Assembly (NCBI GenBank): GCA_028868995.1
Contig: JAGWTH010000003.1
Coordinates: forward strand, 62,001-126,000
Source of the DNA: Burkholderiales bacterium
GTDB taxonomy: Bacteria; Pseudomonadota; Gammaproteobacteria; Burkholderiales; Burkholderiaceae_C
Direction: 5' to 3'
Length of the DNA: 64,000 nt
Within the stretch, counting starts at the first letter, position 1; each line of letters opens with the position of its first letter. The position numbers and the translations under genes were made by a program. Below the pieces are notes generated by a model. The model worked only from the letters and a program-made list of their open reading frames with translations, made no database searches and was not told where the DNA came from. Shown here piece by piece: positions 36,895 through 51,575 of this stretch.

Positions 36895-37262
36895 TACGGC
36901 CGGTCCGCCCTGTACGGCCCGGCGATCTCGCCGCCGAAGGAGCCAGCCGAGCGCTTGAGGATGTACTCCCCTTCGGGGGCCACCACCGGCCACCGCGCAG
37001 GCACGCGCAGGCCGGCCCGGAAGCGGGGGTGGAAGCGGAAATGCCGGTTGCGGCAGCGCACCTCGAGCTCCCAGTTGCGCAGGTCCAGGCTGACACGGGC
37101 GTCGTTGGCGTCCGTCCAGGCCTTTACCGCGCGCATGTGGTTCAGCGTGACGGAAAAGTTGATGGCAACGACGCGAGGAGTCCGTCCGAACGCGCCCTGA
37201 GGACCAGGAAAGGGGCGCCCATTCCCTTGGGAACACCCGTCCGGCAACACTGGCGTACTCAT
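36891..37262 (-). CDS. Hypothetical protein coupled to a LysR gene
   Basis: Protein of 123 residues that I do not recognise. Its ATG overlaps the stop of the upstream LysR gene (ATGA), which supports it as a real gene. The first 28 residues are Pro/Gly rich; the rest has alternating strands such as RVVAINFSVTLNHMRAVKAWTDAN and SLDLRNWELEVRCRNRHFRFHPRFRAGLR, basic and aromatic. It has no signal peptide or membrane helix. It could be a remnant of a larger protein. Convergent SRAP and this gene share their last four bases. Confidence 0.5.
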   Translation of the reverse strand: MSTPVLPDGCSQGNGRPFPGPQGAFGRTPRVVAINFSVTLNHMRAVKAWTDANDARVSLDLRNWELEVRCRNRHFRFHPRFRAGLRVPARWPVVAPEGEYILKRSAGSFGGEIAGPYRADRPY

Positions 37263-38131
37263 GGAGCTTCTCCGAGCCGCTCGACCAGCAGGTCCACCAA
37301 CGCACGCAGCCTGGGAAGTCGGCGCAGATCGCGGTGATACCCCAGCCACACGTCGCGCCCGGGCGGAGGAAGATCCAGTTCTACCCGGCGCAGCCCCGGA
37401 TGCGAGTCGCCGAGCAGGCAGGGAAGCACCGCCACCCCGACACCTGCGGCGCAGGCTACCGCCTGCACGTGCCGGCTGTTGCTGCGAAATGCAATGCGCC
37501 CTTGCGGATACCGGCTGCGCAGCCAAACGGCGTCGGGCATCTCGCTGAACCCGAGATCCATCGTCACGAGGCGGGGTTCCTGCTCGGGGAAAGGCGGGCT
37601 ACTCGTGGACGTGTACAGGGCATAGGACACGTGCATCAGGCGCCGCTGGACAACGTCGGGCTCGTCGAAGGGCACGATGCGCGCGACCAGGTCGGCCTCA
37701 CGGCGTGCAAGGCTGAAGAGCCGGGCGTCCGTGAGCAATTCGACGGTGATGCGGGGATGGAGGGCCGTGAGCTCCGCGCATACCGGGGCGATGGCGTGCA
37801 GGCCGAACCAGTCCGAGGCCGATACGCGCAGCATGCCTTCCAGATGGGAGTCGGCGCCGTCGAGTTGCCGCGAGAACGAGAGGGCATCGGCTTCCATGCG
37901 CTCCGCATGGGCCAGCACGGAGGCTCCCTCGTCGGTCAGCACGAACCCTTCCGCTGTTCTCTGGAACAGGGCCTGGCCCAGCGACGCCTCCAGCGCGTTG
38001 AGGCGCCGGCCCATCGTGGGCTGGCTCTGGCCGAGCGCGCGCGCCGCCGCACTCAGCGTGCCGGCCCGGGCGATGGCCAGGAAGACGCGCACGTCATCCC
38101 AGATCATGGCGGCCATCATACAAAAACGCAT
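37259..38131 (-). CDS. LysR family transcriptional regulator
   Basis: LysR-type regulator of 290 residues. The HTH domain is WDDVRVFLAIARAGTLSAAARALGQSQPTMGRRLNALEASLGQALF near 10-55. The effector domain follows with MLRVSASDWFGLHAIAPV and ends in VLPCLLGDSHPGLRRVELDLPPPGRDVWLGYHRDLRRLPRLRALVD. ATG 38131 has a GAAG site; ATG 38119, 38116 and 38107 are alternatives, the last giving MIWDDVRVFLAIAR. It diverges from the MDR oxidoreductase gene; a palindrome suited to LysR binding lies between them, so it probably controls that gene and itself. Confidence 0.92.
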   Translation of the reverse strand: MRFCMMAAMIWDDVRVFLAIARAGTLSAAARALGQSQPTMGRRLNALEASLGQALFQRTAEGFVLTDEGASVLAHAERMEADALSFSRQLDGADSHLEGMLRVSASDWFGLHAIAPVCAELTALHPRITVELLTDARLFSLARREADLVARIVPFDEPDVVQRRLMHVSYALYTSTSSPPFPEQEPRLVTMDLGFSEMPDAVWLRSRYPQGRIAFRSNSRHVQAVACAAGVGVAVLPCLLGDSHPGLRRVELDLPPPGRDVWLGYHRDLRRLPRLRALVDLLVERLGEAP

Positions 38132-38153
38132 GGAAGTTCTTCAATTCCGATAG

Positions 38154-38171
38154 TTCCCATTCAATTGGGAA
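38154..38171. promoter_or_regulatory. Palindromic operator candidate for the LysR regulator
   Basis: TTCCCA (38154-38159) and TGGGAA (38166-38171) form a perfect 6-bp inverted repeat with a 6-bp spacer. It contains a T-N11-A arrangement typical of LysR sites and lies between the divergent LysR and oxidoreductase genes. The heptamer TTCAATT occurs in the spacer region and again about 20 bp to the left, so two half-sites may exist. Confidence 0.55.
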
Positions 38172-38214
38172 TGACCAACACTGGCGCCACCTTCCATCGC
38201 AACAAGGAAAGCCC

Positions 38215-39225
38215 ATGTCCGACGTTCATTCCCGCGAGATGCGTGCCGTGCTGGTCCCTTCGGCCAACGCGCCGTCTGCCCTGCAGTCCCTGCCCAAGCC
38301 TGTCCCGCGCGCCGGCGAGGTCCTGGTCCGCATCCATGCGAGCGCCGTCAATCCGCTCGACACGAAGATCCGGGCCGGCCAGGCCGCGCACGCTCGCCAA
38401 CCGCTTCCGGCCGTGCTCGGCATGGACCTCGCCGGCACCGTCGAGGCCGTGGGCGAGGGCGTGGTGTCCTTCCAGGTGGGCGATGAGGTCTACGGCTTCA
38501 CCGGCGGCATCGGTGGTCTGCAAGGCAGCCTTGCGGAATACGCGGCCGTCGACGCGAGGCTCATCGCGCGCAAGCCCGACAACCTCACCATGCGCGAGGC
38601 TGCGGCCCTGCCGCTGGTGTTCATCACCGCCTGGGAAGGACTGGTCGACCGCGCCCACGTGCGCAGCGGCCAGAAAGTGCTGGTGCACGGCGGCGCGGGG
38701 GGAGTGGGGCACGTCGCAGTGCAACTGGCACGGGCTCGCGGCGCCGAGGTCTTCGCGACCGGCAGGGCGTCGCAGGCGGACTACATCCGCTCCATCGGCG
38801 CGAAGCCGATCGATTACGAGACTACGCCGGTAGCAGCCTATGTGGACCGGTACACGGGCGGCCGGGGGTTCGACATCGTCTTCGACACGATCGGGGGTTC
38901 CGTGCTCGACGCATCGTTTGCCGCCGTGCGGCGCTATACGGGACACGTGGTGAGTTCGCTCGGTTGGGGCTCGCACCCTCTGGCGCCCCTCTCGTTCCGG
39001 GGCGCAACCTACTCGGGCGTATTCACTCTTCTGCCGATCCTGACGGGCGAGTTCCGGGAGCACCACGGAGAGATCCTGGCGCAGGCCACCGTGCTGGCCG
39101 AAGCGGGCTTGCTCAAGCCGCTGCTGGATCCGGCGCGGTTCGCACTCGATGCCGTGGACGCCGCACATGCCAGCGTTGCCGGCGGCAGCGCCCGGGGGAA
39201 GGTCGTGGGCGACGTCCTGGCGTGA
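38215..39225 (+). CDS. MDR family NAD(P)H-dependent oxidoreductase (quinone oxidoreductase type)
   Basis: Medium-chain dehydrogenase/reductase of 336 residues. The catalytic N-terminal fold includes VRIHASAVNPLDTKIRAG and PAVLGMDLAGTVEAVGEGV near 40-80. The Rossmann site is KVLVHGGAGGVGHVAVQLARARGAEV near 155-175. The structural zinc cysteines of alcohol dehydrogenases are absent, placing it in the zinc-free quinone oxidoreductase or enoyl-reductase branch. An AAGGAAA ribosome site precedes the ATG. The SDR gene follows 43 bp downstream. The LysR-type regulator upstream, with its palindrome, likely controls the pair in response to an unknown inducer. Confidence 0.9.
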   Translation: MSDVHSREMRAVLVPSANAPSALQSLPKPVPRAGEVLVRIHASAVNPLDTKIRAGQAAHARQPLPAVLGMDLAGTVEAVGEGVVSFQVGDEVYGFTGGIGGLQGSLAEYAAVDARLIARKPDNLTMREAAALPLVFITAWEGLVDRAHVRSGQKVLVHGGAGGVGHVAVQLARARGAEVFATGRASQADYIRSIGAKPIDYETTPVAAYVDRYTGGRGFDIVFDTIGGSVLDASFAAVRRYTGHVVSSLGWGSHPLAPLSFRGATYSGVFTLLPILTGEFREHHGEILAQATVLAEAGLLKPLLDPARFALDAVDAAHASVAGGSARGKVVGDVLA

Positions 39226-39268
39226 ACCGCCGCCCCGCATCCCGCATGCCGTTGAACCTGGAGGTTAC

Positions 39269-40096
39269 GTGCCAAGGACATTCATCCTGACCGGCAGTTC
39301 GCGAGGCCTGGGGCGCAGCATCGCTCGCGCCGTCCTCGAAGCAGGCCACCAATTGGTCGCGACCGCACGCGACCCGGGGAAGCTTCAGGACCTGGTGGAG
39401 CACTACGGCGAGCGCGTGCTTCCGGTCGCCCTCGACGTCACAGATTACGCCGCGGCACAGCGCGCCGTTGCGCTTGGCGTGGCCCGCTTCGGCCGGCTCG
39501 ACGTGGTGATCAACAACGCAGGGTTTGCGAACATCGGGGCGGTGGAGGACATGCCGCCGGCCGCGATCGAGACGCAGTTCGCGACCAAGTTCATGGGAAG
39601 CGTGCACGTGATCAAGGCCTCGTTGCCTGTCCTGCGCGCGCAGGGGGCGGGGCATGTCATCCAGATCTCGTCGATCGGCGCGCGAATCGCAACGCCGGGA
39701 GCCGCCGCGTACTACGCAAGCAAATGGGCCCTGTCCGGGTTCGTGGAGTCCCTCGCGCTGGAGGTGGCGCCGCTGGGCATCCATGTCACGGCGGTCGAAC
39801 CGGGCGGCATGAGGACGGACTTCGCGAAGGATTCTTCCGTCACGCTGTTCCCCGCCAGCGCGCCTTATGCCGGCACGGCAGGCGCCGTCATCGCCAAGAT
39901 GCGTGCGGACGGCTATGCGGACGACTATGCGGATCCTGCCCGGGTCGCCGCCCTGGTCCTCGCGGTGGCGGAACTGGACAACCCGCCGGTTCGCCTGCTC
40001 GCGGGGAGCGCCGTTCTGTCCCGGGGCGTCGACGCCAATCGAGCCCAAGCCCAGGCAGACCGAGACTGGGCCTGGCTGAGCCGCAGAGCGGATTGA
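39269..40096 (+). CDS. Short-chain dehydrogenase/reductase (SDR)
   Basis: Classical SDR of 275 residues. Cofactor motif TGSSRGLGRSIA is near residue 8, NNAG near 84, catalytic Ser in QISSIGAR near 137, and YYASK near 150-154. The conserved PGG appears as VEPGGMRTDF. The residues around the cofactor suggest NADP(H), with Arg after the glycine motif. GTG 39269 has GGAGG four bases upstream; the longer ORF start would overlap the upstream gene and has no such site. It is probably in one operon with the MDR oxidoreductase; together they could reduce or detoxify a carbonyl compound. Confidence 0.92.
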   Translation: MPRTFILTGSSRGLGRSIARAVLEAGHQLVATARDPGKLQDLVEHYGERVLPVALDVTDYAAAQRAVALGVARFGRLDVVINNAGFANIGAVEDMPPAAIETQFATKFMGSVHVIKASLPVLRAQGAGHVIQISSIGARIATPGAAAYYASKWALSGFVESLALEVAPLGIHVTAVEPGGMRTDFAKDSSVTLFPASAPYAGTAGAVIAKMRADGYADDYADPARVAALVLAVAELDNPPVRLLAGSAVLSRGVDANRAQAQADRDWAWLSRRAD

Positions 40097-40705
40097 GCAG
40101 CGCCCGGCGCATGGGCCCACGACCGACGCATCGCTGCGAACCCAGGAAAAGCTTGGAGCTCCCCGCCCCGGCGGTTCGTACTTGCGCGGGGCCTGCCTCA
40201 ATCCAGTGAGCAGCTCACCCAGTTTCGGCCCCCACGGCCTTTTCCTGGACGCAGAAAAGCCGAAGGCCTGGATTTCTCAAGGCCCTCGGGTATGCGGGAG
40301 GACCGCTGGGGGACTTAGCGGACGGGTGTCCTGGCGGAGCCGGAGACAGCAGTATCGGGCTCCTGGTTCACTGGGCGATGCGCCTTCCAGACGGATGGGC
40401 ATCCCCGGAATGCCGCGAACGATACCCCTTAGGCGGCGGCAACATGCTGGATGACAGTGCACCTCAAAGAGCTTCTGCGCGACGTTCCCGCCCGCAAGCA
40501 CACACCCGCGCCGGCGCGCCTGCATTCCTCAGGATGGAATGCGTTTCGCTTGATGCACCATCATTGCGATCGTCGAAACCTGCTCCTACAGTGGCGACCC
40601 GGTGCTTCCCCGCACCCGGAACAGCCAGCGACGGGAATGAGGCTTTTCGAGGCGCACGGCGTCATCGGACCAGCGGCATCCCTGTCGATCGAACAGGAGA
40701 CAATC
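40097..40705. other. 609-bp intergenic region containing the left repeat copy
   Basis: There is no convincing gene here. It contains the degenerate copy of the tRNA-Ser 3' flank (40243-40345). The 360 bp between that copy and the Bug gene show short open frames in several frames but no family motif and no recognisable integrase remnant. The last part must hold the promoter of the Bug-Bug-amidohydrolase genes; AGGAGA at 40695-40700 is the ribosome site for the first. Confidence 0.6.
40243..40345 (-). repeat. Degenerate direct copy of the tRNA-Ser 3' end and terminator (att-like, distal)
   Basis: This 103-bp segment matches 50031-50133 at 95 of 103 positions with no gaps, in the same orientation. 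It includes the tRNA 3' acceptor sequence with CCA (on the minus strand, CTCCGGCTCCGCCA with one change) and the hairpin terminator at 40260-40289, in which one stem pair is lost and another became a wobble. The rest of the tRNA is absent. It looks like a displaced tRNA 3' end at the far edge of an integrated island. Confidence 0.85.
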
Positions 40706-41713
40706 GTGAACATCCCCATCCGCCGCAGCAGCTTGCCCTCGCTCGTCCGCCGCGCATTGCTTTCCATCGGCGCGCTGGCACTCGCCTCGGGGGCGCAGTC
40801 CGCGCTGGCGGAAGGCTATCCCGCCAAGCCGGTCCGGCTGGTCGTCGGCTTTTCCGCGGGGGGCCCGACGGACGTGGTGGCCCGCGCCTTTGCCGAACAC
40901 GCCGCACGCGTGCTGGGCAAGCCCTTCATCGTGGACAACCGACCCGGCGCGAACACCATCATCGCCGCCGAGCTGGTCGCGAAGGCCCCCGCCGACGGCT
41001 ACACGCTGCTGCTCGGCGCCACCAACCACACCATGATTCCCGCGCTGTACAGCGCGCAGGTCAAGTTCGATGCGGTGCGCTCGTTCGCGCCGGTGTGCAC
41101 GCTGGCCGACAGCCCCACCGTGCTGGTGGTCGGGTCCGCGATGCACGTGACCACACTGGCCGGCTTCCTCGACGACGTGCGGGCGGCGCCCGGGAAACGC
41201 ACCTTCGGCTCGCCGGGCACGGGCAGCTCGGGCCACTTCGCGGGGGAGCGTTTCGCGCGCCTGACCCACACGACCCTGAACCACATCCCCTACAAGGGAG
41301 CGGCCCCCGTGGTGACTGACCTGGTCGCCGGCCAGCTGGACAGCTCCTTCGCGACGCTCGGTTCGGTGCTGCCGCTGATTCAGGCAGGCAAGATCACGCC
41401 GATCGCCGTGGCGGCCGCGCAGCGTTCGCCGCTGCTGCCGAACACGCCCACTTTCAACGAAGCCGGCGTCAAGAGGTTCAACGACAGCGCGTGGTACGGC
41501 CTGCTCGCACCCGCCGGCACGCCGCCCGCCGTGCTCCAGGCACTCGAAAAGGCCGCCCGCAGCTTCGACCAGGAGCCGGCTTCGGTGGCAAAGCTGCAAG
41601 GCCTGGGACTCGGCGCGCAGAGCGTGTGCGGCGCCGCGTTCGGCAATCAGTTGCAGCGCGAAGTGCAAGTCAATACGCAGCTGGCCAAGGATCTCAATCT
41701 CAAGATCGAGTAA
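40706..41713 (+). CDS. Bug-family tripartite tricarboxylate transporter substrate-binding protein
   Basis: Periplasmic receptor of 335 residues of the Bug/TctC family. Signal peptide about 1-33, with Arg-Arg before the hydrophobic core ([23 protein letters not shown]). Family motifs in the mature part are [72 protein letters not shown] and the C-terminal lobe. GTG 40706 has AGGAGA five bases upstream; the longer frame before it is not homologous. Ligands are usually carboxylates. No TctA/TctB permease is in the window, so the receptor is an orphan. It is the first gene inside the repeat-bounded island. Confidence 0.93.
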
Positions 41714-41760
41714 GCGTCCGCGCACACGCCCTCCCCCAACTCCCACCAAGGATCCATTCC

Positions 41761-42735
41761 GTGTTGTTTTCCTCCCTATCCCGCACGCGCCGTGCCCTGT
41801 TCGCCGCCTGCGCTTTCGCAGTCGCTTCCATCGCCCACGCTGCTTACCCGGAGCGCACGATCACCATCGTCGTTCCCTACGCGCCCGGCGGGGCTGCCGA
41901 CGCGCTGGCGCGCATCGTGGCCGCGAGCATGGCGACCAAGCTCGGCACCAGCGTGATCATCGACAACCGCGCGGGCGCGAGCGGAACCATGGGCGAAGCT
42001 TTCGTGGCCAAGGCGCCGGCCGACGGGTATACGCTCCTCTACACCGCGACGCCGTACTCGATCAACCCGCACCTGTTCCCGCATATGCCGTACGCGCCCG
42101 GCGCGCTGCAACCCCTGTCGCTGGTTTCGCTGGCCGCCAACGTCCTCATCGTGAAGGGCGACTCGCCCTACAAAAACGTGCAGGACCTGATCGCCAAGGC
42201 CAAGGCGCATCCCGGCAAGGTCAACTTCGCTTCCGGCGGCAGCGGCACCGTGCAGCGCATGGCGGCCGAACTGTTCCGCCAGAAACTGAACCTCGACATG
42301 GTCCACGTGCCCTACAAGAGCGGCGGGCCGGCGATCACCGACGTGATGGGCGGCCAGGTCGACTTCATGTTCGGCACCGTCGCCGCGACCTCGGCGCACA
42401 TCGATGCGGGCAAGCTCAAGGCGCTGGCCGTCACCTCGCCCAAACGCTCGCCGCGACTGCCCGCCGTCCCCACCGTGGCCGAGACCGTGATCCCGGGCTA
42501 CGAGGTGTACGAGTGGAACGGCATGTTCCTGCCGGCGGGAACGCCACCCGACGTCGTGGCGAAGCTGCAGAAGGCCGTTGCCGAGACCATGCAGGAGCCG
42601 GACGTGAGGAAACGCATCACCGGCCTGGGTGCGGACCCGGTTGGCTCGACGCCCGCGCAGTTCGCGGACTACCTGAAGAAGGAAGACGCGAAATGGGCGG
42701 AGGTCGTACGCAAGGGCAACATCCGCCTGGACTGA
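41761..42735 (+). CDS. Bug-family substrate-binding protein
   Basis: Second Bug/TctC-type receptor, 324 residues. Signal peptide about 1-27 ending in IAHAA. Mature motifs are [54 protein letters not shown] and HVPYKSGGPAITDVMGGQVDFMFG. GTG 41761 with AAGGA eight bases upstream is the natural start. It lies 47 bp after the first Bug gene and 16 bp before the amidohydrolase gene, so all three form an operon. Two different receptors side by side suggests alternative ligands or duplication; they are clearly divergent from each other. Confidence 0.93.
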   Translation: MLFSSLSRTRRALFAACAFAVASIAHAAYPERTITIVVPYAPGGAADALARIVAASMATKLGTSVIIDNRAGASGTMGEAFVAKAPADGYTLLYTATPYSINPHLFPHMPYAPGALQPLSLVSLAANVLIVKGDSPYKNVQDLIAKAKAHPGKVNFASGGSGTVQRMAAELFRQKLNLDMVHVPYKSGGPAITDVMGGQVDFMFGTVAATSAHIDAGKLKALAVTSPKRSPRLPAVPTVAETVIPGYEVYEWNGMFLPAGTPPDVVAKLQKAVAETMQEPDVRKRITGLGADPVGSTPAQFADYLKKEDAKWAEVVRKGNIRLD

Positions 42736-42751
42736 ATCGGGCCGTCCTGAC

Positions 42752-43633
42752 GTGACGCTGCCTCCGCTTTCCGAGCCCGTGCCGCACTCCGCCGGCACGC
42801 GCCGGCCGCGCCGCGCACTGCCCGAAGGGGCTTGCGATGCGCACATGCACATCTTCGATCCGCGCTTTGCGCCTTCGCCGCACTGGCCGCGCACGCCCCC
42901 GGTCGCGCCGGTGGCCGCCTACCGGCGCCTGCAGCAGCGCATCGGCACGCAACGGACGGTAGTGGTCACGCCCTCCACCTATGGGGTGGACAACACCTGC
43001 ACGCTGGATGCCCTCGACGAGTTGGGCCCAACCGCGCGCGGAGTGGCCGTGGTCGATGCGGATGTCCCGCGGGCCGAACTCGACCGGCTCGCGTCGCATC
43101 GGGTGTGCGGCTTGCGGGTGAACTTCGTCTCGCCGCAATCCTGGGGCGAGACCACGCCGCAGATGCTGCAGACGCTGGCGGACAGGGTCGCGCCGCTGGG
43201 CTGGCACGTCCAGGTGTTCGCACATCCGGAGCAGCTGATGGCGATGGAAGCCCTGCTCGGCTCGCTGCCGGTGCCGCTGGTGATCGACCACCTGGGTCGG
43301 ATCGATCCGGCCGAGGGTGCGCAAGGCCCTGCGTACGACGCGCTGCGCCGCCTGCTCGATCGCGGCAACACCTGGATCAAGCTCTCCGGGGCCTACATGC
43401 GTTCGCGCGAAAGGGCGCCGGGCTACGGCGACACCTTTGCGGTGGCTCAAGGGCTGCTGCGGCACGCGCCTGAACGGCTCGTCTGGGGCAGCGATTGGCC
43501 TCACACAACGGAGAAGCCGGGTTCGGTGGACGACGCCGACCTCGTCGACGTGCTGCTCGCTTGGTGCTGGACACAGGACCTGCTGGAGCAGGTCCTGGTG
43601 CGCAACCCGCGGCGGCTTTACGGTTTCGACTGA
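42752..43633 (+). CDS. Amidohydrolase family protein (LigI / galactarolactone-isomerase-like)
   Basis: Metal-dependent or metal-lost amidohydrolase of 293 residues (PF04909). Key motifs are ACDAHMHIFDPRFAPS near 27-42, the phosphate/carboxylate loop VVVTPSTYGVDN near 68-79, GLRVNFVS near 115, VIDHLGRID near 172, and RLVWGSDWPHTTE near 243-255. The family includes 2-pyrone-4,6-dicarboxylate lactonase and D-galactarolactone isomerase, enzymes of sugar-acid or aromatic breakdown. The GTG at 42752 starts 16 bp after the Bug gene. Its 3' end overlaps the converging SMP-30 gene by 16 bp. It is paralogous to the protein at 47200-48075. Confidence 0.88.
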   Translation: MTLPPLSEPVPHSAGTRRPRRALPEGACDAHMHIFDPRFAPSPHWPRTPPVAPVAAYRRLQQRIGTQRTVVVTPSTYGVDNTCTLDALDELGPTARGVAVVDADVPRAELDRLASHRVCGLRVNFVSPQSWGETTPQMLQTLADRVAPLGWHVQVFAHPEQLMAMEALLGSLPVPLVIDHLGRIDPAEGAQGPAYDALRRLLDRGNTWIKLSGAYMRSRERAPGYGDTFAVAQGLLRHAPERLVWGSDWPHTTEKPGSVDDADLVDVLLAWCWTQDLLEQVLVRNPRRLYGFD

Positions 43634-44550
43634 CGACCGAGCGCAAGCGCACGGCCCGCCACGTCCAGGCGCGCCATCAGCACGTTGCCGTGCGTCGAGT
43701 CCGTGCAATACACGGTCTTGCGATCCAGCCCGCCGAACGTCAGGTTGGTGACCGACGCGCCGCGCGGCCCCATCAGCACGAGCTCTGGCTCGGCGAATCG
43801 GTTGAGCACCCACACGTAACCCAGGCCCGGATTCGCGACCAGCAGCCGTCCGGTTTCGTCCATCGCCAGTCCGTCGGGACCGCTCGGGCCGTACGACGTG
43901 AAGAACTGGCCCGCCTTGGACACGCTGCCGTCCGCGAGCAGCGGCATACGCCACACGCAGTTGCCGCGCGTGACCGCGACGAACAGGAAGCGCTCGTCGG
44001 GCGACAACACGATGCCGTTGGGGCTGGGAACATTCGACAGCAGCATGTCGAGGTGGCCGTCGGGCGCCAGCCGGTAGACGCGCCCGGTGGGATCCTGCAG
44101 GCCGGTCTGTCCCTGGTCCGTGAAGTACAGGTTGCCGCGCGTGTCGAACACGAGATCGTTCACGCCCTTGAACCTCTCGCTGTTGCGGCGCTCCAGGAAG
44201 GGCCGCACCTTGCCGCTTGCGATCTCCAGCACCACCAAGCCGTTCTTGTAGTCGGTGACCAGGAGCTCGCCGGGCGTGAGGAACTTCATGCCGTTAGGCT
44301 CCCCGTCCCATTCGCCCACGAGCGACCAGCCGCCCGACGGGTCGATCCGGAAGACTCGGCCAAATGGGATGTCCGTCACATAGAGGTTGCCAGCTGCGTC
44401 GAACACCGGCCCCTCCAGGAAGGAATCCGCGAGGCGCCCGCCCTGGTTCACGTCTGCCCAATCGCTGCGCACGCCGGTTCGGCGGAACTCAGCCGGCATG
44501 GAGGTGAACAGAGCGAGCTCGCGGGTCTCGGGTGTCTGCAGGAGGATCAT
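43618..44550 (-). CDS. SMP-30/gluconolactonase-family lactonase
   Basis: Six-bladed beta-propeller enzyme of 310 residues of the SMP-30/gluconolactonase/LRE family, which opens sugar or other lactones with a divalent metal. Predicted metal ligands are Glu in FLEGPVFDAAGN near residue 43, Asn in GVNDLVFDTRGN near 137 and Asp in GPDGLAMDETGR near 235. Repeated blades of the form G-NLYVTD and LLVTDYKNG are visible. ATG 44550 (MILLQTPETRELALF) starts 10 bp after the stop of the dehydrogenase gene. It is the last gene of the minus-strand catabolic operon. No signal peptide is seen, so it should be cytoplasmic. Confidence 0.88.
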   Translation of the reverse strand: MILLQTPETRELALFTSMPAEFRRTGVRSDWADVNQGGRLADSFLEGPVFDAAGNLYVTDIPFGRVFRIDPSGGWSLVGEWDGEPNGMKFLTPGELLVTDYKNGLVVLEIASGKVRPFLERRNSERFKGVNDLVFDTRGNLYFTDQGQTGLQDPTGRVYRLAPDGHLDMLLSNVPSPNGIVLSPDERFLFVAVTRGNCVWRMPLLADGSVSKAGQFFTSYGPSGPDGLAMDETGRLLVANPGLGYVWVLNRFAEPELVLMGPRGASVTNLTFGGLDRKTVYCTDSTHGNVLMARLDVAGRALALGRQSKP

Positions 44551-44560
44551 CGCCGCATTG

Positions 44561-45499
44561 TCAGGCAGTCGTCCTCTGGGCGGCGGCAAGCACGGCCAGC
44601 ACGTTCTTTGCCGCGGCGACGCCCATGTTGACGTAAGCATCCCCCGTCACCCCGCCGATGTGCGGACTCAGGACGATGTTGCGCTCACCATGGAAGGGGT
44701 GCGGCGCCGTCATGGGTTCGACCGCGAAGCTGTCCAGCCCGGCGGAGCCGACCTGGCCGGAGTGCACGGCGTCCAGCAAGGCGGCCTCGTCGATGAGGCC
44801 ACCGCGGGCTGTATTCACCAATATCACGCCACGCTTGCAGGCTGCCAGCGTCTGCGCGTTCAGCATGTTGCGGTTGTCTGCCGTCAGCGGGCAATGCAGT
44901 GAGATGGCATCGGATTCGCGCCAGATCGTAGCAAGGTCCACAACGCGGATGTAGTCCGGCACATTCCGCGCGAAAGGATCGAAGCCGATCACCTTCATGC
45001 CCATCGCGTCGCACATGCGCGCGAAGCGCTGGCCGATGGCGCCCAGACCCACCAGGCCGATCGTGCGGCCGTGCAACTCCAGGCTCTTGTGCGTGGCCTT
45101 GTCCCAGTGCCCCGCGTGCATGCGATCGTTCAGGTGGACGACCGACTTCGCACAAGCGAGCAACAAGGCCATCGCCTGCTCGGCGACAGCCGCAGCGTTC
45201 GCCCCCGCCGCTGCGCGCACCTCGATGCCGCGCGCGTTGGCCGCCTCCTTGTCGATGGTGTCCGTGCCGCTGCCGTGCTTGGAGATGACACGCAGCGAAG
45301 GCGCGGCGTCCATCACGGCGGCGCCGACCTTGCCGTAGCGCACGATGATGCCGGCCGGGTCATGCCGCTCGCAAAGCGCAACCAGGTCCGCCTCCTGAGG
45401 CGTCCTTCCCGCGTAGAGGACCTCGAAGTCCTTCAGCAGGTCGAGGGCCTGCTGTGCGAGGTCCGCGCCGGTGACGACGATCGCTCGCCTTGCGCTCAC
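44561..45499 (-). CDS. D-2-hydroxyacid dehydrogenase (3-phosphoglycerate dehydrogenase-like)
   Basis: NAD-dependent dehydrogenase of 312 residues of the D-isomer-specific 2-hydroxyacid family. The NAD site is GRTIGLVGLGAIGQRFARMC near 138-157. Catalytic residues are Arg in VNTARGGLIDE near 230, a Glu about 30 residues later, and His in LSPHIGGVT near 280. The GTG start at 45499 overlaps the stop of the RraA-like gene (GTGA). SerA-type serine biosynthesis is unlikely because there is no regulatory ACT domain and the gene lies in a catabolic cluster; it may oxidise a hydroxy-acid intermediate or reduce the pyruvate-like product of the aldolase. Confidence 0.9.
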   Translation of the reverse strand: MSARRAIVVTGADLAQQALDLLKDFEVLYAGRTPQEADLVALCERHDPAGIIVRYGKVGAAVMDAAPSLRVISKHGSGTDTIDKEAANARGIEVRAAAGANAAAVAEQAMALLLACAKSVVHLNDRMHAGHWDKATHKSLELHGRTIGLVGLGAIGQRFARMCDAMGMKVIGFDPFARNVPDYIRVVDLATIWRESDAISLHCPLTADNRNMLNAQTLAACKRGVILVNTARGGLIDEAALLDAVHSGQVGSAGLDSFAVEPMTAPHPFHGERNIVLSPHIGGVTGDAYVNMGVAAAKNVLAVLAAAQRTTA

Positions 45500-46176
45500 A
45501 GGCTTTCCTCTTCCTTGAGCACGCCGGCGGCACGCAGGGCAGGCAGCAGCCAGGAACTGGCGGTGTTGCCTTTCTTGATCGCGGTAATGCGGGCCGACTC
45601 GTCCTCTACCTTCTTGCGCGCCAGGGGCATCAGGGAGGCGACGCGCTCGCGTTCGCCGATGAACACGCCATCGGCATCCGCCACGACGAGATCGCCTGAG
45701 CGCACCGTCACGCCTCCGAGGCTGATGGGATGGCCGATCCGGCCCGGCACGTTCTTTGTCGGACCATTGGGGTTGGTGCCGTACGACCAGACGGGAAAGT
45801 CCATCTCGTCGATCTCCAGGCTGTCGCGCACCGCGCCGTCGATGATCACGCCGGCGATGCCCAGCTGCTTGCACGCCGTCATCATGATCGTTCCCATGAG
45901 GGCGGCGGTCTGGTCACCCTTGCCGTCGATCACCAGCACGTCGCCCGGCTTGGCCAGGGTCATGGCAGCATGGATCATCAGGTTGTCGCCAGGACGCACT
46001 TCGACGGTCAGCGCGGGACCCGCCACTTTCATGCGCGGACGCAGCGCCGCGATGCGGCCGTGCAAGGCGCCGCGGCGGCCGTTCACGTCGGCCAGGATGG
46101 CAGCCTGGAATTCGGAAGCTTGGCGAACGAGACCGGGCGAGACGCGATCGAAGTCGCGGACGATGTCTTGGGTCAT
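45496..46176 (-). CDS. RraA-like protein / 4-hydroxy-4-methyl-2-oxoglutarate aldolase family
   Basis: Protein of 226 residues with the RraA/HMG-CHA aldolase fold. The substrate and metal motif is IAGVIIDGAVRDSLEIDEMDFPVWS near 108-132, with the Arg-Asp pair of the aldolases. The loop GDNLMIHAAMTLAKPGDVLVIDGKGD near 62-87 is also typical. Aldolase members split 4-hydroxy-4-methyl-2-oxoglutarate or 4-carboxy-4-hydroxy-2-oxoadipate into pyruvate plus pyruvate or oxaloacetate. The tail after residue 180 is longer than in short RraA proteins. The gene is in one operon with Bug, amidohydrolase, dehydrogenase and lactonase genes, which supports a catabolic role. Confidence 0.87.
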   Translation of the reverse strand: MTQDIVRDFDRVSPGLVRQASEFQAAILADVNGRRGALHGRIAALRPRMKVAGPALTVEVRPGDNLMIHAAMTLAKPGDVLVIDGKGDQTAALMGTIMMTACKQLGIAGVIIDGAVRDSLEIDEMDFPVWSYGTNPNGPTKNVPGRIGHPISLGGVTVRSGDLVVADADGVFIGERERVASLMPLARKKVEDESARITAIKKGNTASSWLLPALRAAGVLKEEESL

Positions 46177-46204
46177 GGTGTTTCTTTCAGGGATCCCGGG
46201 AAAT

Positions 46205-47203
46205 TCAGTCGGTGTGGATGTGGCCATCGCGGATGACCTTGGCCCAGGTGGCGGAGTCCGCTTTCTGCACTTCTGCCAGGTGCTGGGGCGTGCCGCCGAC
46301 CAGGTTCGTGCCGAGCTTGTCGGCAAGCGCCACGACGGACGGATCGCGCAAGGCCTTGTTGATCTCCGCGTTCAGGCGGTTCACGATGGCCTGAGGTGTG
46401 CGTCCCGGGAGGTACACCGCCTGCCACTGCTCGATCACGAAATCCGGTTGGCCCGCTTCCGCCATGGTCGGGACTTGGGGAAGGGCCTTGAGCCGCTTCG
46501 CCGAAGTCACTGCGAGCGCGCGCAGCTTGCCCGACTGGACGTGCGGCAGCGCCGCCGTCACCGGCGCGAACATGAACTGCACCTGCCCTGCGAGGGTGTC
46601 CAGGAGCGCCGGCGTGTCGCCCTTGTAGGGCACATGGAGGAACTTCACGCCCTTGCGCTGGGCCAGCAGTTCCGCCTGCATCTGCAGGATCGTGCCGTTG
46701 CCGCCCGAGGCGTAAGCCAGCTGGCCGGGCTTGGCACGTGCAGCCGCCAGCAGGTCCTCGAGCGAGTGGAAGGGCTGCGCGGCGGCGGTGACCAGCACGT
46801 GCGGAACGGTCCCGACCAGGATCACCGGCTCCAGGTCGCGCAGGGGGTCGTAGGAGAGCTTCGCAAGCAGGTGCGGCGCGATGGTCTGAGCTCCGATGGA
46901 GGTTCCCAGGACCGTGTAGCCGTCCGGTGCTGCGTGTGCGACGAAGGCACCGCCGATCGTGCCGGTGGCGCCTGGTCTGTTGTCGACGACCACCGGCGCC
47001 CCGACCGATGCGGACAAGATCGGAGTGATGCTCCGGGCCAGGACATCCGTGGTCCCACCCGGCGGGTAGGGCACGACCCAAGTGATGGCGTGTCCAGCGG
47101 GCCAGGCCGATTGGGCACGCACGCAGGGCGCGATGGCCGCTGCGGCGAGGCCACCCAGCAGCAGTCGGCGTTTGGAGTCTGCAAGGGATTTGGAAGAGTT
47201 CAT
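46205..47203 (-). CDS. Bug-family substrate-binding protein
   Basis: Third Bug/TctC-type receptor, 332 residues. The N-terminus SKRRLLLGGLAAAAIAPCVRAQ looks like a Tat-like twin-arginine or lipoprotein-like signal; the cysteine in APC could be a lipidation site, although the lipobox is poor. Motifs of the mature protein are [53 protein letters not shown] and HVPYKGDTPALLDTLAGQVQFMFAP. Its ATG overlaps the stop of the amidohydrolase gene. It is the third gene of the minus-strand operon and an orphan receptor. Ligand unknown, likely the substrate of the adjacent enzymes. Confidence 0.93.
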   Translation of the reverse strand: MNSSKSLADSKRRLLLGGLAAAAIAPCVRAQSAWPAGHAITWVVPYPPGGTTDVLARSITPILSASVGAPVVVDNRPGATGTIGGAFVAHAAPDGYTVLGTSIGAQTIAPHLLAKLSYDPLRDLEPVILVGTVPHVLVTAAAQPFHSLEDLLAAARAKPGQLAYASGGNGTILQMQAELLAQRKGVKFLHVPYKGDTPALLDTLAGQVQFMFAPVTAALPHVQSGKLRALAVTSAKRLKALPQVPTMAEAGQPDFVIEQWQAVYLPGRTPQAIVNRLNAEINKALRDPSVVALADKLGTNLVGGTPQHLAEVQKADSATWAKVIRDGHIHTD

Positions 47204-48075
47204 GGAGCAGGCGGCGCAAAGCCGTAGAGACGTTCGGGGTTGGCAACGAGAATGTTTTGCAAGGTGCGTGCATCGCCCGCCCAGGCGGCCAGCCGGTCCA
47301 CCTGGCGAGCGTCGTCAGGAAAGGACTGCTTTCCAGCGGAGGATGTGGCATGAGGCCAGTCGCTGCCCCACAGGACGCGGTCAGGCGCGGCATCGATGAA
47401 ACTTCGGGCCAGCGCATCCAGGGTGGGGTCCTCCACCGTACCGAGCGGGCTGACGATGCAGCCGCCGGAGAGCTTCACCCACGCTCGACCGCCTGCGAGG
47501 AGTTCCAGCAGCAGCGCGTGAGCCGGTTCGGCCGCGAAGTTCGCTGGCGCGATGCGACCGAAATGGTCGAACACCAGGTCCACCGGCAGCGTGCGCAGCA
47601 CGGGTGCGAGTTCGACGAGCAAGGTCGTGGGCATCAGCAGCTGCAGGTGCCACCCGAGGGGCGCAATCCGCTGCGCGATGGGCCGGATCGCGTCCGGCTC
47701 GAGCGTCCGGCTCAGGGAAAGGTTGATGCGGACACCGCGGACGCCGGCAAGATGCATCCGCTGCAAGCTGGCGTGGTCGGTGTCAGCGGCGATCACCGCG
47801 ACGCCGCGCCCCATCGGCCCCAGTTCGGCCAGGCCCGCGAGCATCGCGCCGTTGTCGGTGCCGTAGGTCGATGGCGTGACGATGACGGCGCGGCTCGTTC
47901 CCATGCGGCGCTGCACTTGCCGGTACTGCGCGATGGAGGCATCGGGCGGCAGCAGCGCCGCGTCCGTGACTGCCGGATGACGGCTGTCGTAGACGTGCAG
48001 GTGGCAGTCGCAGGCGCCGGGCGGCAGGACCGCGGCGGCCACCGCGTCACCTGCGGAGAACGGGAACGACGCCAT
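47200..48075 (-). CDS. Amidohydrolase family protein (galactarolactone-isomerase-like)
   Basis: Second LigI/galactarolactone-isomerase-type amidohydrolase, 291 residues. Motifs are PPGACDCHLHVYDSRHPA near 18-34, QYRQVQRRMGTSRAVIVTPSTYGTDNGAML near 56-85, GVRGVRINLSLSR near 110, VFDHFGRIAPAN near 165 and RVLWGSDWPHATSS near 230. The QRRMG and PSTYGTDN blocks are closest to what I recall of D-galactarolactone isomerases. It shares the whole layout with the protein at 42752-43633. It lies 15 bp after the fourth Bug gene and overlaps the third Bug gene by four bases. Confidence 0.88.
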   Translation of the reverse strand: MASFPFSAGDAVAAAVLPPGACDCHLHVYDSRHPAVTDAALLPPDASIAQYRQVQRRMGTSRAVIVTPSTYGTDNGAMLAGLAELGPMGRGVAVIAADTDHASLQRMHLAGVRGVRINLSLSRTLEPDAIRPIAQRIAPLGWHLQLLMPTTLLVELAPVLRTLPVDLVFDHFGRIAPANFAAEPAHALLLELLAGGRAWVKLSGGCIVSPLGTVEDPTLDALARSFIDAAPDRVLWGSDWPHATSSAGKQSFPDDARQVDRLAAWAGDARTLQNILVANPERLYGFAPPAP

Positions 48076-48090
48076 GGATGATGCGGCTTG

Positions 48091-49053
48091 TCAGTCGACC
48101 TTGGCGCCGGATTCCTTGACGATGGGTGCCCAGCGGGCGAGGTCCTCGTGCATCAGCGTGGAGAAGCGTTCGGCCGAGCCGCCGAGCACGTCGGCGCCCT
48201 GGGCTTCGAACTTCTTCTTCAACTCGGGGTCCTTCAGCGCCGCGTTGATGTCCGCATTCAGCTTCGCCACGACGGGCTTCGGCAGGTTGGCCGGGCCCAG
48301 GATGCCGAACCAGGTGACGGCCTCGAAGCCCTTGTAGCCGGACTCGGAGACGGTCGGCACCTGCGGCAGGTCACCGACGCGCTGCAGCGAGGTCACCGCG
48401 AGGGCCCGCATCTTGCCGGTGCGGATGTGGCCGATCAGCGTGGGCACCGACGAGATATAAAGCTGCACGGCGCCGCTGATCACGTCGACGGCGCCCTGCG
48501 CCGCGCCCTTGTACGGGACACGCGTGAGCTGGACGCCGGCGAGCTTCTCGAAGGAGACGGTGGCGAGGTGCGCCACGGTGCCGTTGCCCGAGTAGGCGAT
48601 GTTGACGCTGCCCGGATGCGCCTTCGCCTCCTTCACCACGTCGGCCAGGGTATGGAACGGCGAAGTGGCTCCGACCACGATCACCAGCGGCGAGCTCGCC
48701 ACCAGGCTGACCGGGGTCAGGTCCTTCAGGGGATCGTAGGGCAGATGGCTGTAGAGCGTGGGGTTGATGGCGAGGTTGCTCGTCTGGCCCATCACGAAGG
48801 TGTAGCCATCGGCCGCCGACTTCGCCGCGGCGTCCACGCCGAGGTTGCCGCCGGCCCCCGGCTTGTTGTCGATCACGAAGTCATACCCCTTGAGCTTGCC
48901 GGTGACCTCGCGCGTGAGGATGTCCGTGCCGCCGCCGGCGGGGAACGGCACGATCATGCGGATGGGCCTGGCAGGCCAGGATTGGGCGAAGGCGGTCGAG
49001 GTGGCGAGGGAGGCAGCGGCGAGTGCGAGGGCAGCACGACGGGAAATCTGCAT
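48091..49053 (-). CDS. Bug-family substrate-binding protein
   Basis: Fourth Bug/TctC-type receptor, 320 residues, first gene of the minus-strand catabolic operon. Signal peptide about 1-24 (MQISRRAALALAAASLATSTAFAQ) with twin arginines. Mature motifs are WPARPIRMIVPFPAGGGTDILTREV, VIDNKPGAGGNLGVDAAAKSAADGYTFVM and RVPYKGAAQGAVDVISGAVQLY. The divergent IclR gene starts 100 bp away, so this receptor and the genes behind it are the probable targets of that regulator. The final residues VKESGAKVD are typical of the family. Confidence 0.94.
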   Translation of the reverse strand: MQISRRAALALAAASLATSTAFAQSWPARPIRMIVPFPAGGGTDILTREVTGKLKGYDFVIDNKPGAGGNLGVDAAAKSAADGYTFVMGQTSNLAINPTLYSHLPYDPLKDLTPVSLVASSPLVIVVGATSPFHTLADVVKEAKAHPGSVNIAYSGNGTVAHLATVSFEKLAGVQLTRVPYKGAAQGAVDVISGAVQLYISSVPTLIGHIRTGKMRALAVTSLQRVGDLPQVPTVSESGYKGFEAVTWFGILGPANLPKPVVAKLNADINAALKDPELKKKFEAQGADVLGGSAERFSTLMHEDLARWAPIVKESGAKVD

Positions 49054-49152
49054 GGTTCTTGTCTCCGGATGGGCGCGGTCTGCGCGCAGCGAACTGTAGA
49101 CACTCGTTCCGCCTCGTACAATGCCATTTCACTGAACGAACCTTGGTGCATC
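49054..49152. promoter_or_regulatory. Divergent promoter region of IclR gene and catabolic operon
   Basis: The 99-bp gap holds TACAAT at 49117-49122, a good -10 hexamer facing the IclR gene, with only a weak -35. CGTTC at 49105-49109 and GAACG at 49134-49138 form an inverted repeat around it, a possible operator. The assignment is by eye. Confidence 0.35.
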
Positions 49153-49920
49153 ATGCGCAACGCGAAGAGGACGCAGAACGAGAACGAACCGGCCGGCAGC
49201 GAGGGCGGGGTGACGGCAGTGACACGCGCGATGTCGCTGATGGAAGCGTTCGAGATCGGCGAGTCGACGCTGTCGCTCGCCGAATTGAGCCGCCGTACCG
49301 GCATGCACAAGACCACGGTGCTACGGCTCACGCGTACGCTGGCGCTGTCCCAATACATGGTCCAGGCGGACGACGGGCAGTGGCGGCTGGGGCCTGCGGC
49401 CGGCTGGCTGGGCGCGCGCTACCAGGCAGGATTCGATGTGAACCGCGTGGTCGAGCCCGCGCTGCACCTTCTGGTGAAGGAGACCGGCGAGAGCGCATCC
49501 TTCTACGTGCGCGAAGGCGACATCCGCTCCTGCGTGGCGCGCGTCGAGGGCCCGCAGTCCGTGCGGCACAACGTGCGAATAGGCGAGCGCCTGCCTCTCA
49601 ACAAGGGAGCCCCGGGACGCGTGATCCTGGCATTCAGCGGCGCGGCCGGCGAGCCCTATGAGGCCATTCGCGAGCGCGGCTTCCACATTTCGCTCGGTGA
49701 ACGCGAGGCGGAAGTCGCCAGCGTCGCGGCGCCGGTGTTCGGGCTGAACTGGCGCCTCCTCGGCTCCATGTGCATTTCCGGACCTAGCTCGAGGCTGACC
49801 AAGGCCAAGCTGGAAAGGCACGCGAAGGTGATCATCCGGGCGGCCAACCAGTTGTCCTACGCGCTGGCGGGCAGCCATTCGTCCGCCACGCCGGCGGCCT
49901 TGTCGCGGTGGCATCCCTGA
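49153..49920 (+). CDS. IclR family transcriptional regulator
   Basis: IclR-type regulator of 255 residues. The N-terminal winged HTH (about 20-75) contains TRAMSLMEAFEIGESTLSLAELSRRTGMHKTTVLRLTRTL. The GAF-like effector domain follows with ESASFYVREGDIRSCVARVEGPQSVRHNV and LPLNKGAPGRVILAFSG. IclR proteins commonly control catabolic and glyoxylate-related operons. It diverges from the fourth Bug gene, pointing to control of the Bug-amidohydrolase-Bug-RraA-dehydrogenase-SMP30 operon. It is the last gene before the tRNA-proximal repeat. Confidence 0.93.
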   Translation: MRNAKRTQNENEPAGSEGGVTAVTRAMSLMEAFEIGESTLSLAELSRRTGMHKTTVLRLTRTLALSQYMVQADDGQWRLGPAAGWLGARYQAGFDVNRVVEPALHLLVKETGESASFYVREGDIRSCVARVEGPQSVRHNVRIGERLPLNKGAPGRVILAFSGAAGEPYEAIRERGFHISLGEREAEVASVAAPVFGLNWRLLGSMCISGPSSRLTKAKLERHAKVIIRAANQLSYALAGSHSSATPAALSRWHP

Positions 49921-50030
49921 AGACCCCAGCCGGAAGCCGTCAGCGCACTGAGCTTGGTCGACGGCGAACTCTTCTGGGCTGCTGCCGGTTTCGAAGACAC
50001 CCCGATAAGGCTCTGGACCGGTGTGGACGG

Positions 50031-50133
50031 TCCTGGACGCGCAAAAACCGAAGGCCTTGATTTCTCAAGGCCTTCGGGTGTGCGGGAGGACCGCTGGGGG
50101 ACTTTGCGGACGGGTGTCCTGGCGGAGCAGGAG
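50031..50133 (-). repeat. tRNA-Ser 3' end and flank, proximal copy of the 103-bp direct repeat
   Basis: The intact copy of the repeat. On the minus strand it comprises the last 14 nt of the tRNA including the encoded CCA, the spacer and the perfect terminator hairpin. It matches 40243-40345 at 95 of 103 positions in direct orientation, framing 9.7 kb of catabolic genes. Confidence 0.85.
50042..50077 (-). terminator. Intrinsic terminator of the serS-tRNA-Ser transcript
   Basis: On the minus strand, CCGAAGGCCTTGA pairs perfectly with TCAAGGCCTTCGG around a GAAA tetraloop and is followed by TTTTTG. It lies about 45 bp downstream of the tRNA 3' end, within the 103-bp repeat. Confidence 0.93.
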
Positions 50134-50210
50134 GGATTCGAACCCTCGATACGGTAAAACCGTATACCGGATTTCGAGTCCGGCGCATTCGACCACTCTG
50201 CCACCGCTCC
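50120..50210 (-). tRNA. tRNA-Ser (anticodon CGA)
   Basis: A 91-nt class II tRNA including an encoded 3' CCA. The acceptor 5' strand GGAGCGG pairs with CTGCTCC. The anticodon stem CCGGA/TCCGG encloses the loop CTCGAAA, giving anticodon CGA for serine codon UCG. A long variable arm (TACGGTTTTACCGTA) is typical of tRNA-Ser, and the T-loop GGTTCGAATCC is intact. It lies 45 bp downstream of serS on the same strand and is followed by an intrinsic terminator, so the synthetase and this substrate tRNA may share a transcript. Its 3' end is part of the island-bounding repeat. Confidence 0.97.

Positions 50211-50255: not shown

Positions 50256-51575
<1,320 letters not shown>

Follow-up and report, generated by a model that had tools for sequence, protein, structure and literature searches.

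Several described systems come close to the locus analyzed here, in which two direct repeats, each containing the 3′ end of a tRNA-Ser(CGA) gene and the module that follows it, frame a 9.7-kb catabolic block in the genome of a Burkholderiales bacterium (GenBank assembly GCA_028868995.1, contig JAGWTH010000003.1, positions 62,001 to 126,000; this whole stretch of 64,000 nucleotides is referred to as the window). Cis-mobilizable elements (CIMEs) are described as elements without integration or transfer genes that keep attL/attR-like attachment ends, that are formed by decay, and that take part in tandem accretion (PMC5704250). Tandem islands are likewise described at the ssrA gene of Dehalococcoides, with 3′-end repeats between them and with 16 islands that carry and 15 that lack an integration module (PMC3146451). 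The kind of structure, tandem accretion with CIME-like remnants, is already known. Among the titles of openly licensed papers, none on genomic islands or tRNA integrases of Ramlibacter, the genus compared here, was found. For the window, we consider it probable that two related islands have been stacked at one tRNA-Ser core and that both have lost their integrases.

The block between the repeats resembles a CIME in that no recombination or transfer gene is present among its ten assigned genes and in that two module copies with a 14-nt core stand as attL/attR-like ends. It differs from CIMEs, as far as the available part of their description goes, in that the shared ends comprise an arm of about 100 bp beyond the core, and no integrase of the type present in the relative G064 was found in the genome. 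Because mobility of the ends is at most a prediction and no integrase remains, we call the block CIME-like without assigning it to that class. The Dehalococcoides islands, as described, are like the window in their tandem position downstream of one RNA gene and in their catabolic cargo (a reductive dehalogenase among others), whereas they rely on a serine recombinase with a 20-bp repeat of the tmRNA (PMC3146451) in place of the tyrosine integrases of the relatives, the 14-nt tRNA-Ser core and the 103-bp repeat found here. Hotspots without mobility genes, in the part of their description that is available, likewise consist of a variable interval between conserved genes with no recombinase (PMC5635113), from which the window is set apart by its tRNA-end attachment signature. 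As for the features by which tRNA-targeted islands are recognized, the locus has a 3′-end duplication downstream of the gene, atypical GC content at third codon positions (GC3) and absence of the block at the site in relatives; an integrase and an empty site were not found.

The proximal copy (50031–50133, plus strand) and the distal, detached copy (40243–40345, plus strand) are direct repeats that align without gaps over 103 bp, with 95 identities and eight differences. The target gene, tRNA-Ser(CGA), occupies 50120–50210 on the minus strand (ARAGORN; also matched by Rfam RF00005), and its last 14 nt (50120–50133) fall inside the proximal copy; the duplicated core of the distal copy (40332–40345) carries one mismatch, at 40341. 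An earlier note, made from the letters of this DNA, had described the repeat in these terms, and the alignment and the ARAGORN call confirm it. Searching the organism's own genome (3.76 Mb in 81 contigs) returns full-length matches at exactly these two places (E 2e-48 and 2.7e-37), and the third-best match covers 30 bases of the hairpin palindrome (E 0.002), which rules out the dispersed repeat that the note had considered for the distal copy. Since homology of the proximal copy to other genomes reaches leftwards to about 49998, in pairwise BLAST and also in a profile that includes the window's sequence, position 50031 is not a natural edge of that copy. Downstream of the tRNA a terminator-like hairpin (50048–50077, minus strand) has its stem in all 13 copies aligned and folds at −29.1 kcal/mol with a z score of −6.5 (fold of 50036–50084, minus strand). 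The distal hairpin is weaker yet still folds (−23.3 kcal/mol, z −4.0), and the earlier statement that its stem pairing had been lost holds as a weakening only. Among the 13 aligned copies, a set that leaves out five copies found later (G081, G066, G072, G023 and G004), the two of the window are 92% identical to each other and each is at most 74% identical to the 11 others; because of this difference a common origin of both arms in a single island lineage is probable, unless they were homogenized later.

The repeat is, judging from its sequence, a conserved Ramlibacter module in which a tRNA 3′ end is joined to GGAC repeats, spaced by about 10 bp, and to a terminator-like hairpin. The relatives compared are 60 Ramlibacter genomes (G-numbers), the window's own genome included, sampled as one genome per species with the nearest strains outside the comparison. 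On the tRNA side, the spacers of G014, G008, G026, G022 and G001 resemble that of the window in having the hairpin and the GGAC repeats, mostly at a spacing of about 10 bp, and six copies continue leftwards with TGGA(C) repeats towards an ACCCC..TAAGG motif. A model of the module, R1, built from 13 sequences (the window's included), has matches in 28 of the 60 genomes when the cutoff is E≤0.001. At E≤1e-10 it identifies 18 places, spread over 15 genomes; the counts given here rest on these 18 places, and among weaker matches only two tRNA-Asp places are used. The 18 strong places comprise all 13 training sequences and five new ones (G081, G066, G072, G023 and G004). Nine are flush with tRNA-Ser(CGA), three are flush with tRNA-Ser(GCT) (shortened in G004) and six are detached; for G001, where ARAGORN calls no tRNA, the flush position is judged from 61 matching nt at the end of a contig. 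The two weaker relatives are flush with tRNA-Asp(GTC), in G036 (L144) and G035 (L145). In the hairpin, five of the 12 pairs are altered on both sides, with pairing preserved, in one copy or more, and the covariation term is small (−0.78 kcal/mol, without a shuffle control). A strict pattern of the module occurs in four of the 60 genus genomes and in none of 399 sampled genomes of the family (six of them of the genus), and is narrow, given that it also misses the window's own copies. Two candidate matches were set aside: a viral contig that fits the pattern (L114), taken as chance, with no tRNA and neither hairpin nor tRNA end in the stretch read, and a third R1 match in G076 (C69:11792; L104:3792–3914), a hairpin that lacks a tRNA end and lies 4 kb away from the detached copy.

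All six detached copies, those of the window, G014, G009, G064, G023 and (for tRNA-Ser(GCT)) G076, cease to match the tRNA after 14 or 15 nt, with one core mismatch in the window and several in G014. Wherever the detached copy shares a contig with its tRNA (four of four), it lies downstream and in direct orientation, at 9.8 kb in the window, 3.0 kb in G014, 34 kb in G009 and 53 kb in G064; in G023 and G076, tRNA and detached copy are on separate contigs. The same boundary is seen in islands that still have an integrase. Integrases adjoin tRNA-Ser(CGA) in G007, G009, G023, G064 and G076, and in G009, G064, G020 and G030 an integrase stands beside one of two ends and the far side carries a duplicate of 14–15 nt from the homologous tRNA-Ser end; G023 shows a similar pattern with its ends on different contigs. 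The exact 14-mer of the tRNA end recurs 11.4 kb away in G020 and 5.3 kb away in G030, within about 0.3 kb of the integrase, against chance expectations from base composition of 0.00015 and 0.00018, respectively. A 15-nt repeat in G005 was dropped, as it abuts a run of N that is likely a scaffold gap. These duplications bear, as read from the sequences, the signature of site-specific exchange within the 3′ end of the tRNA. The earlier proposals of insertion at the tRNA 3′ end in the geometry seen here, with the last 14 nt duplicated, and of the 3′ 14-mer as attachment site are thus borne out by relatives (G009, G064, G020 and G030 for the geometry, G020 and G030 for the 14-mer). G064, G023 and G076 (at its CGA gene) have an integrase and belong to a second, looser group of spacers, in which G015 and G028 share 66 and 41 bp of spacer with no PF00589 match on the tRNA's contig. 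A third arm-like spacer beside tRNA-Ser (86% over 192 bp) is found in G013 (L045) and G021 (L051), with no PF00589 match nearby. In G027 (L054, contig C10) a 35-bp repeat, 97% identical, combines 6 nt of the tRNA-Ser 3′ end with 29 bp of spacer 4.6 kb downstream of the tRNA; its boundary, at 6 nt of the tRNA, differs from the 14-nt core.

The nature of the module is judged here from G066, where tRNA-Ser(GCT) is followed by the module, about 65 bp, a 411-amino-acid integrase (PF13356, PF22022 and PF00589), AlpA and a DUF927 protein. Its position here, with a tRNA-Ser on one side and a tyrosine integrase on the other, makes it most likely that the module represents the attachment arm on the integrase side in a family of islands. 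The architecture of Arm-DNA-bind_3, Phage_int_M and Phage_integrase domains is one that we take to be P4-type. With islands of this presumed type at tRNA 3′ ends G066 shares tRNA, arm, integrase, AlpA and DUF927 protein, whereas the window keeps the arm without the integrase and has no AlpA or replication gene among its assigned genes. The arm of G022 (at CGA) aligns with that of G076 (at GCT) over 212 bp, and these two align with the G066 arm over 155 and 161 bp, respectively, almost to the start of the integrase. A weaker relative of the module (E 1.1e-8) stands between tRNA-Asp and an integrase in G036. Most simply, the island family to which the arm belongs would use several tRNAs that share a 3′ end with the reading TGGCGGA on the opposite strand. 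The GGAC/TGGAC repeats, phased at about 10 bp, are candidate binding sites for the arm-binding domain of the integrase. The earlier note had attributed the length of the homology to a donor with the same tRNA context; an integrase-side arm explains it better, as the module lies beside a different tRNA-Ser and an integrase in G066.

Contrary to the earlier reading, the distal copy does not bound the foreign DNA. Beyond it lie a LysR gene (37259–38131, minus strand), an MDR gene (38215–39225, plus strand) and an SDR gene (39149/39275–40096, plus strand), a block at 37259–40096 that is likely a remnant of an older island. GC3 is 0.83 in these three genes (p 0.001) and 0.86 in the ten genes between the copies (p 5e-5), compared with 0.94 in 32 genes with a backbone homologue, a set drawn from a list requiring GC3 >0.80 and hence with a residual bias towards high GC3; the compositional shift that the note had proposed as a check is thus present. 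Matches to the SDR at E≤1e-60 occur in two of the 60 genomes, its own and G061 (50% identity), and the DNA at 37300–40242 has weak matches in 54 of 60 genomes (its own included), the best outside its own being 392 bases at 67%. The DNA left of the distal copy is, on this comparison, as variable as the block right of it. Conserved backbone borders the region on the tRNA side with serS (50256–51566, minus strand; PF00587/PF02403, synteny), and resumes on the far side at about 33.0–34.2 kb of the window: collinearity of the window's proteins with G011 and G026 extends to 33035, DNA matches to G011 continue to about 34200, and the first conserved gene is that of a histidine kinase (31611–33035, minus strand; PF02518/PF00512, synteny). 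The interval from tRNA-Ser to this gene measures 2.1 kb in G035, 4.9 kb in G036, 6.1 kb in G011, 14.9 kb in G012 and G020, 17 kb in the window and 47.9 kb in G026. The histidine kinase gene is visible in five of 29 relatives' loci; in the other 24 it lies beyond the compared stretch or its place differs. No gene of the block is found at the site at ≥45% identity in these 29 loci. The predicted empty site, with serS–tRNA-Ser next to the SDR/MDR region, is likewise absent from all 29, in a sample of one genome per species, and the shortest interval between tRNA and backbone is the 2.1 kb of G035. An open reading frame that we presume to be Ku-like lies in the interval behind tRNA-Ser in G035 (L063) and G067 (L165).

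In the proposed model, the 103-bp repeat would consist of the arm of Ramlibacter P4-type tyrosine-recombinase islands that target tRNA-Ser, together with the 14-nt core exchanged by the recombinase. An older island would have inserted at tRNA-Ser(CGA) with its arm facing the tRNA, and a second island of the same family would then have used the restored core, so that the older arm and its 14-nt scrap of tRNA were displaced by 9.8 kb. Loss of both integrases would have left a 9.7-kb catabolic block, enclosed by the two arms, and, past the distal arm, the LysR–MDR–SDR block of about 3 kb. Read away from the tRNA, the window would accordingly consist of a first arm, the catabolic block, the 14-nt core, a second arm and the LysR–MDR–SDR block. 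The proximal arm would persist since its hairpin would now serve as the transcription terminator of the tRNA. The sequences themselves show the repeat, its boundary at 14–15 nt, its recurrence within the genus, an arm next to an integrase in G066 and low GC3 to either side of the distal copy; we infer the order of the events, the loss of the integrases, the retention by selection and any remaining mobility of the block. That the proximal arm may be retained because its hairpin terminates tRNA transcription is suggested by the stem pairs that change on both sides with pairing kept.

Several observations weigh against this model. Nine strong flush modules were searched over 1 kb of flank or more, and an integrase is kept in G066 alone; the other eight (window included) were searched with four integrases, with PF00589 run genome-wide on four of the eight, and the count leaves out G008 and G022 (too short) and G004. 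No attachment scrap is found within 9 kb in G066, and none at the outer end of the older block in the window (about 37 kb) by an ungapped scan or as a 14-mer with ≤3 mismatches; because such 14-mers number 54 in the window against 20.5 expected, weak matches to the core are uninformative there. The integrase match of G036 is split over two frames, and the detached copy of G014 matches weakly (74% over 81 bp) and has several mismatches in its core. PF00589 has five matches in the window's own genome and none on the window's contig, no integrase remnant is detected in the window with the integrases of four relatives as queries (best E 0.82), and no relative of the G064 integrase is present in the genome at E≤1e-15. 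Finally, in G009, G064 and G023 the module lies outside the integrase-bearing island, which also fits a native flank of the tRNA.

This last point leads to the strongest rival, close to the earlier note's version, in which tRNA-Ser of this lineage natively has the module as its 3′ flank and terminator and a single 9.7-kb island, from a close donor with the same flank, displaced it, its integrase being lost or acting from elsewhere. The module is indeed flush with tRNA-Ser(CGA) in nine of the 60 genomes and lies beyond the integrase islands of G009, G064 and probably G023, and the stem of its hairpin varies in step as that of a terminator would. A native flank of one gene, however, would not be expected flush with tRNA-Ser(GCT) in G076 or between tRNA-Ser(GCT) and an integrase in G066, nor does it explain the low GC3 of the DNA past the distal copy and its lack of a close relative in the genus, and for an island to bear the flank at its end, its excision in the donor would have had to be unusual. 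We judge this explanation rather unlikely and keep it as a rival.

Exchange could also have occurred without any integrase, by homologous recombination of a circular molecule that crossed over in the tRNA–module segment or by exchange between the flanking core genes, as already proposed for hotspots without mobility genes (Oliveira et al.; PMC5635113, in the part available). The absence of an integrase in or near the block and the variation of the interval between tRNA-Ser and histidine kinase (2.1–47.9 kb in six relatives) agree with such a route, which nevertheless does not predict that the boundary falls at nucleotides 14–15 of the tRNA in six detached copies, or that the same boundary is found in islands with an integrase; we regard it as improbable. 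Least credible of all is that the 3′ flank of the tRNA was simply duplicated as a segment in this genome, with no mobile DNA involved, although the earlier note had also named duplication. It would readily explain that the two window copies are each other's closest among those aligned (92%), but not the detached copies with the same boundary in five other genomes, the GC3 shift of the block or its absence, at ≥45% identity, from the site in 29 relatives' loci, and we consider it highly improbable. Stacking of two islands at the tRNA-Ser core thus remains the reading that we prefer.

The ten genes assigned between the copies encode four TctC-type binding proteins, two amidohydrolases, an SMP-30/gluconolactonase (SGL) family protein, a 2-hydroxyacid dehydrogenase, an RraA-like protein and an IclR-type regulator; all are transport, catabolic or regulatory genes, in line with the note's account of the block, and profile matches reveal no recombinase, AlpA or replication gene among them. 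On the plus strand, two TctC-type genes (40751–41713 and 41791–42735; PF03401), in open reading frames that open at 40451 and 41491, respectively, precede an amidohydrolase gene (42752–43633; PF04909). On the minus strand follow genes for the SGL protein (43618–44640; PF08450), a D-2-hydroxyacid dehydrogenase (44561–45520, within open reading frame 44561–45874; PF02826/PF00389), an RraA-like aldolase (45496–46326; PF03737 at residues 78–222, the true start being probably later), a TctC-type protein (46205–47203; PF03401), an amidohydrolase (47200–48075; PF04909) and a further TctC-type protein (48091–49053; PF03401). The IclR-type regulator (49126–49920, plus strand; PF09339/PF01614) occupies the place expected for an integrase. 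The starts at 40751, 41791 and 49126 and that within open reading frame 44561–45874 are our choices. The run at 43618–49920, with TctC, amidohydrolase, TctC, RraA, 2-hydroxyacid dehydrogenase and SGL on the minus strand and a divergent IclR, has the look of a single catabolic operon accompanied by its regulator, and parts similar to it are found on Variovorax plasmids. Plasmids of Variovorax, Ideonella and others carry stretches similar to parts of the region at 71–81%, with 15 of 72,556 plasmid records matched and none across most of the query; the LysR–MDR pair alone is 76% identical to an Ideonella plasmid. A viral scan with one island protein gave a single distant match. TctC-type genes at 33–43% identity also stand behind tRNA-Ser in G025 (L065, with an amidohydrolase), G001 (L069), G005 (L067), G031 (L047) and G034 (L056). 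Because TctC genes are numerous in such genomes, their placement there may be chance.

In all, the locus shows catabolic blocks that would have stacked behind one tRNA and outlasted their integrases, and it supplies a concrete 14-nt core and an arm sequence for an island family of Ramlibacter. It also holds a caution for the detection of islands, in that the repeat found closest to a tRNA may mark a junction inside the foreign DNA instead of the island's outer limit. More speculatively, and with considerable reservation on our side, the arm could have been domesticated as the terminator of the tRNA, so that selection on the hairpin keeps arm and core after the integrase is lost, integrase-less catabolic blocks stay permanently re-targetable by islands with the same core, and the tRNA-Ser slot acts as a self-maintaining dock for cassettes in Ramlibacter. 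If it is true that the arm serves as the terminator of the tRNA, this would provide a simple reason why attachment ends outlive the elements that brought them.

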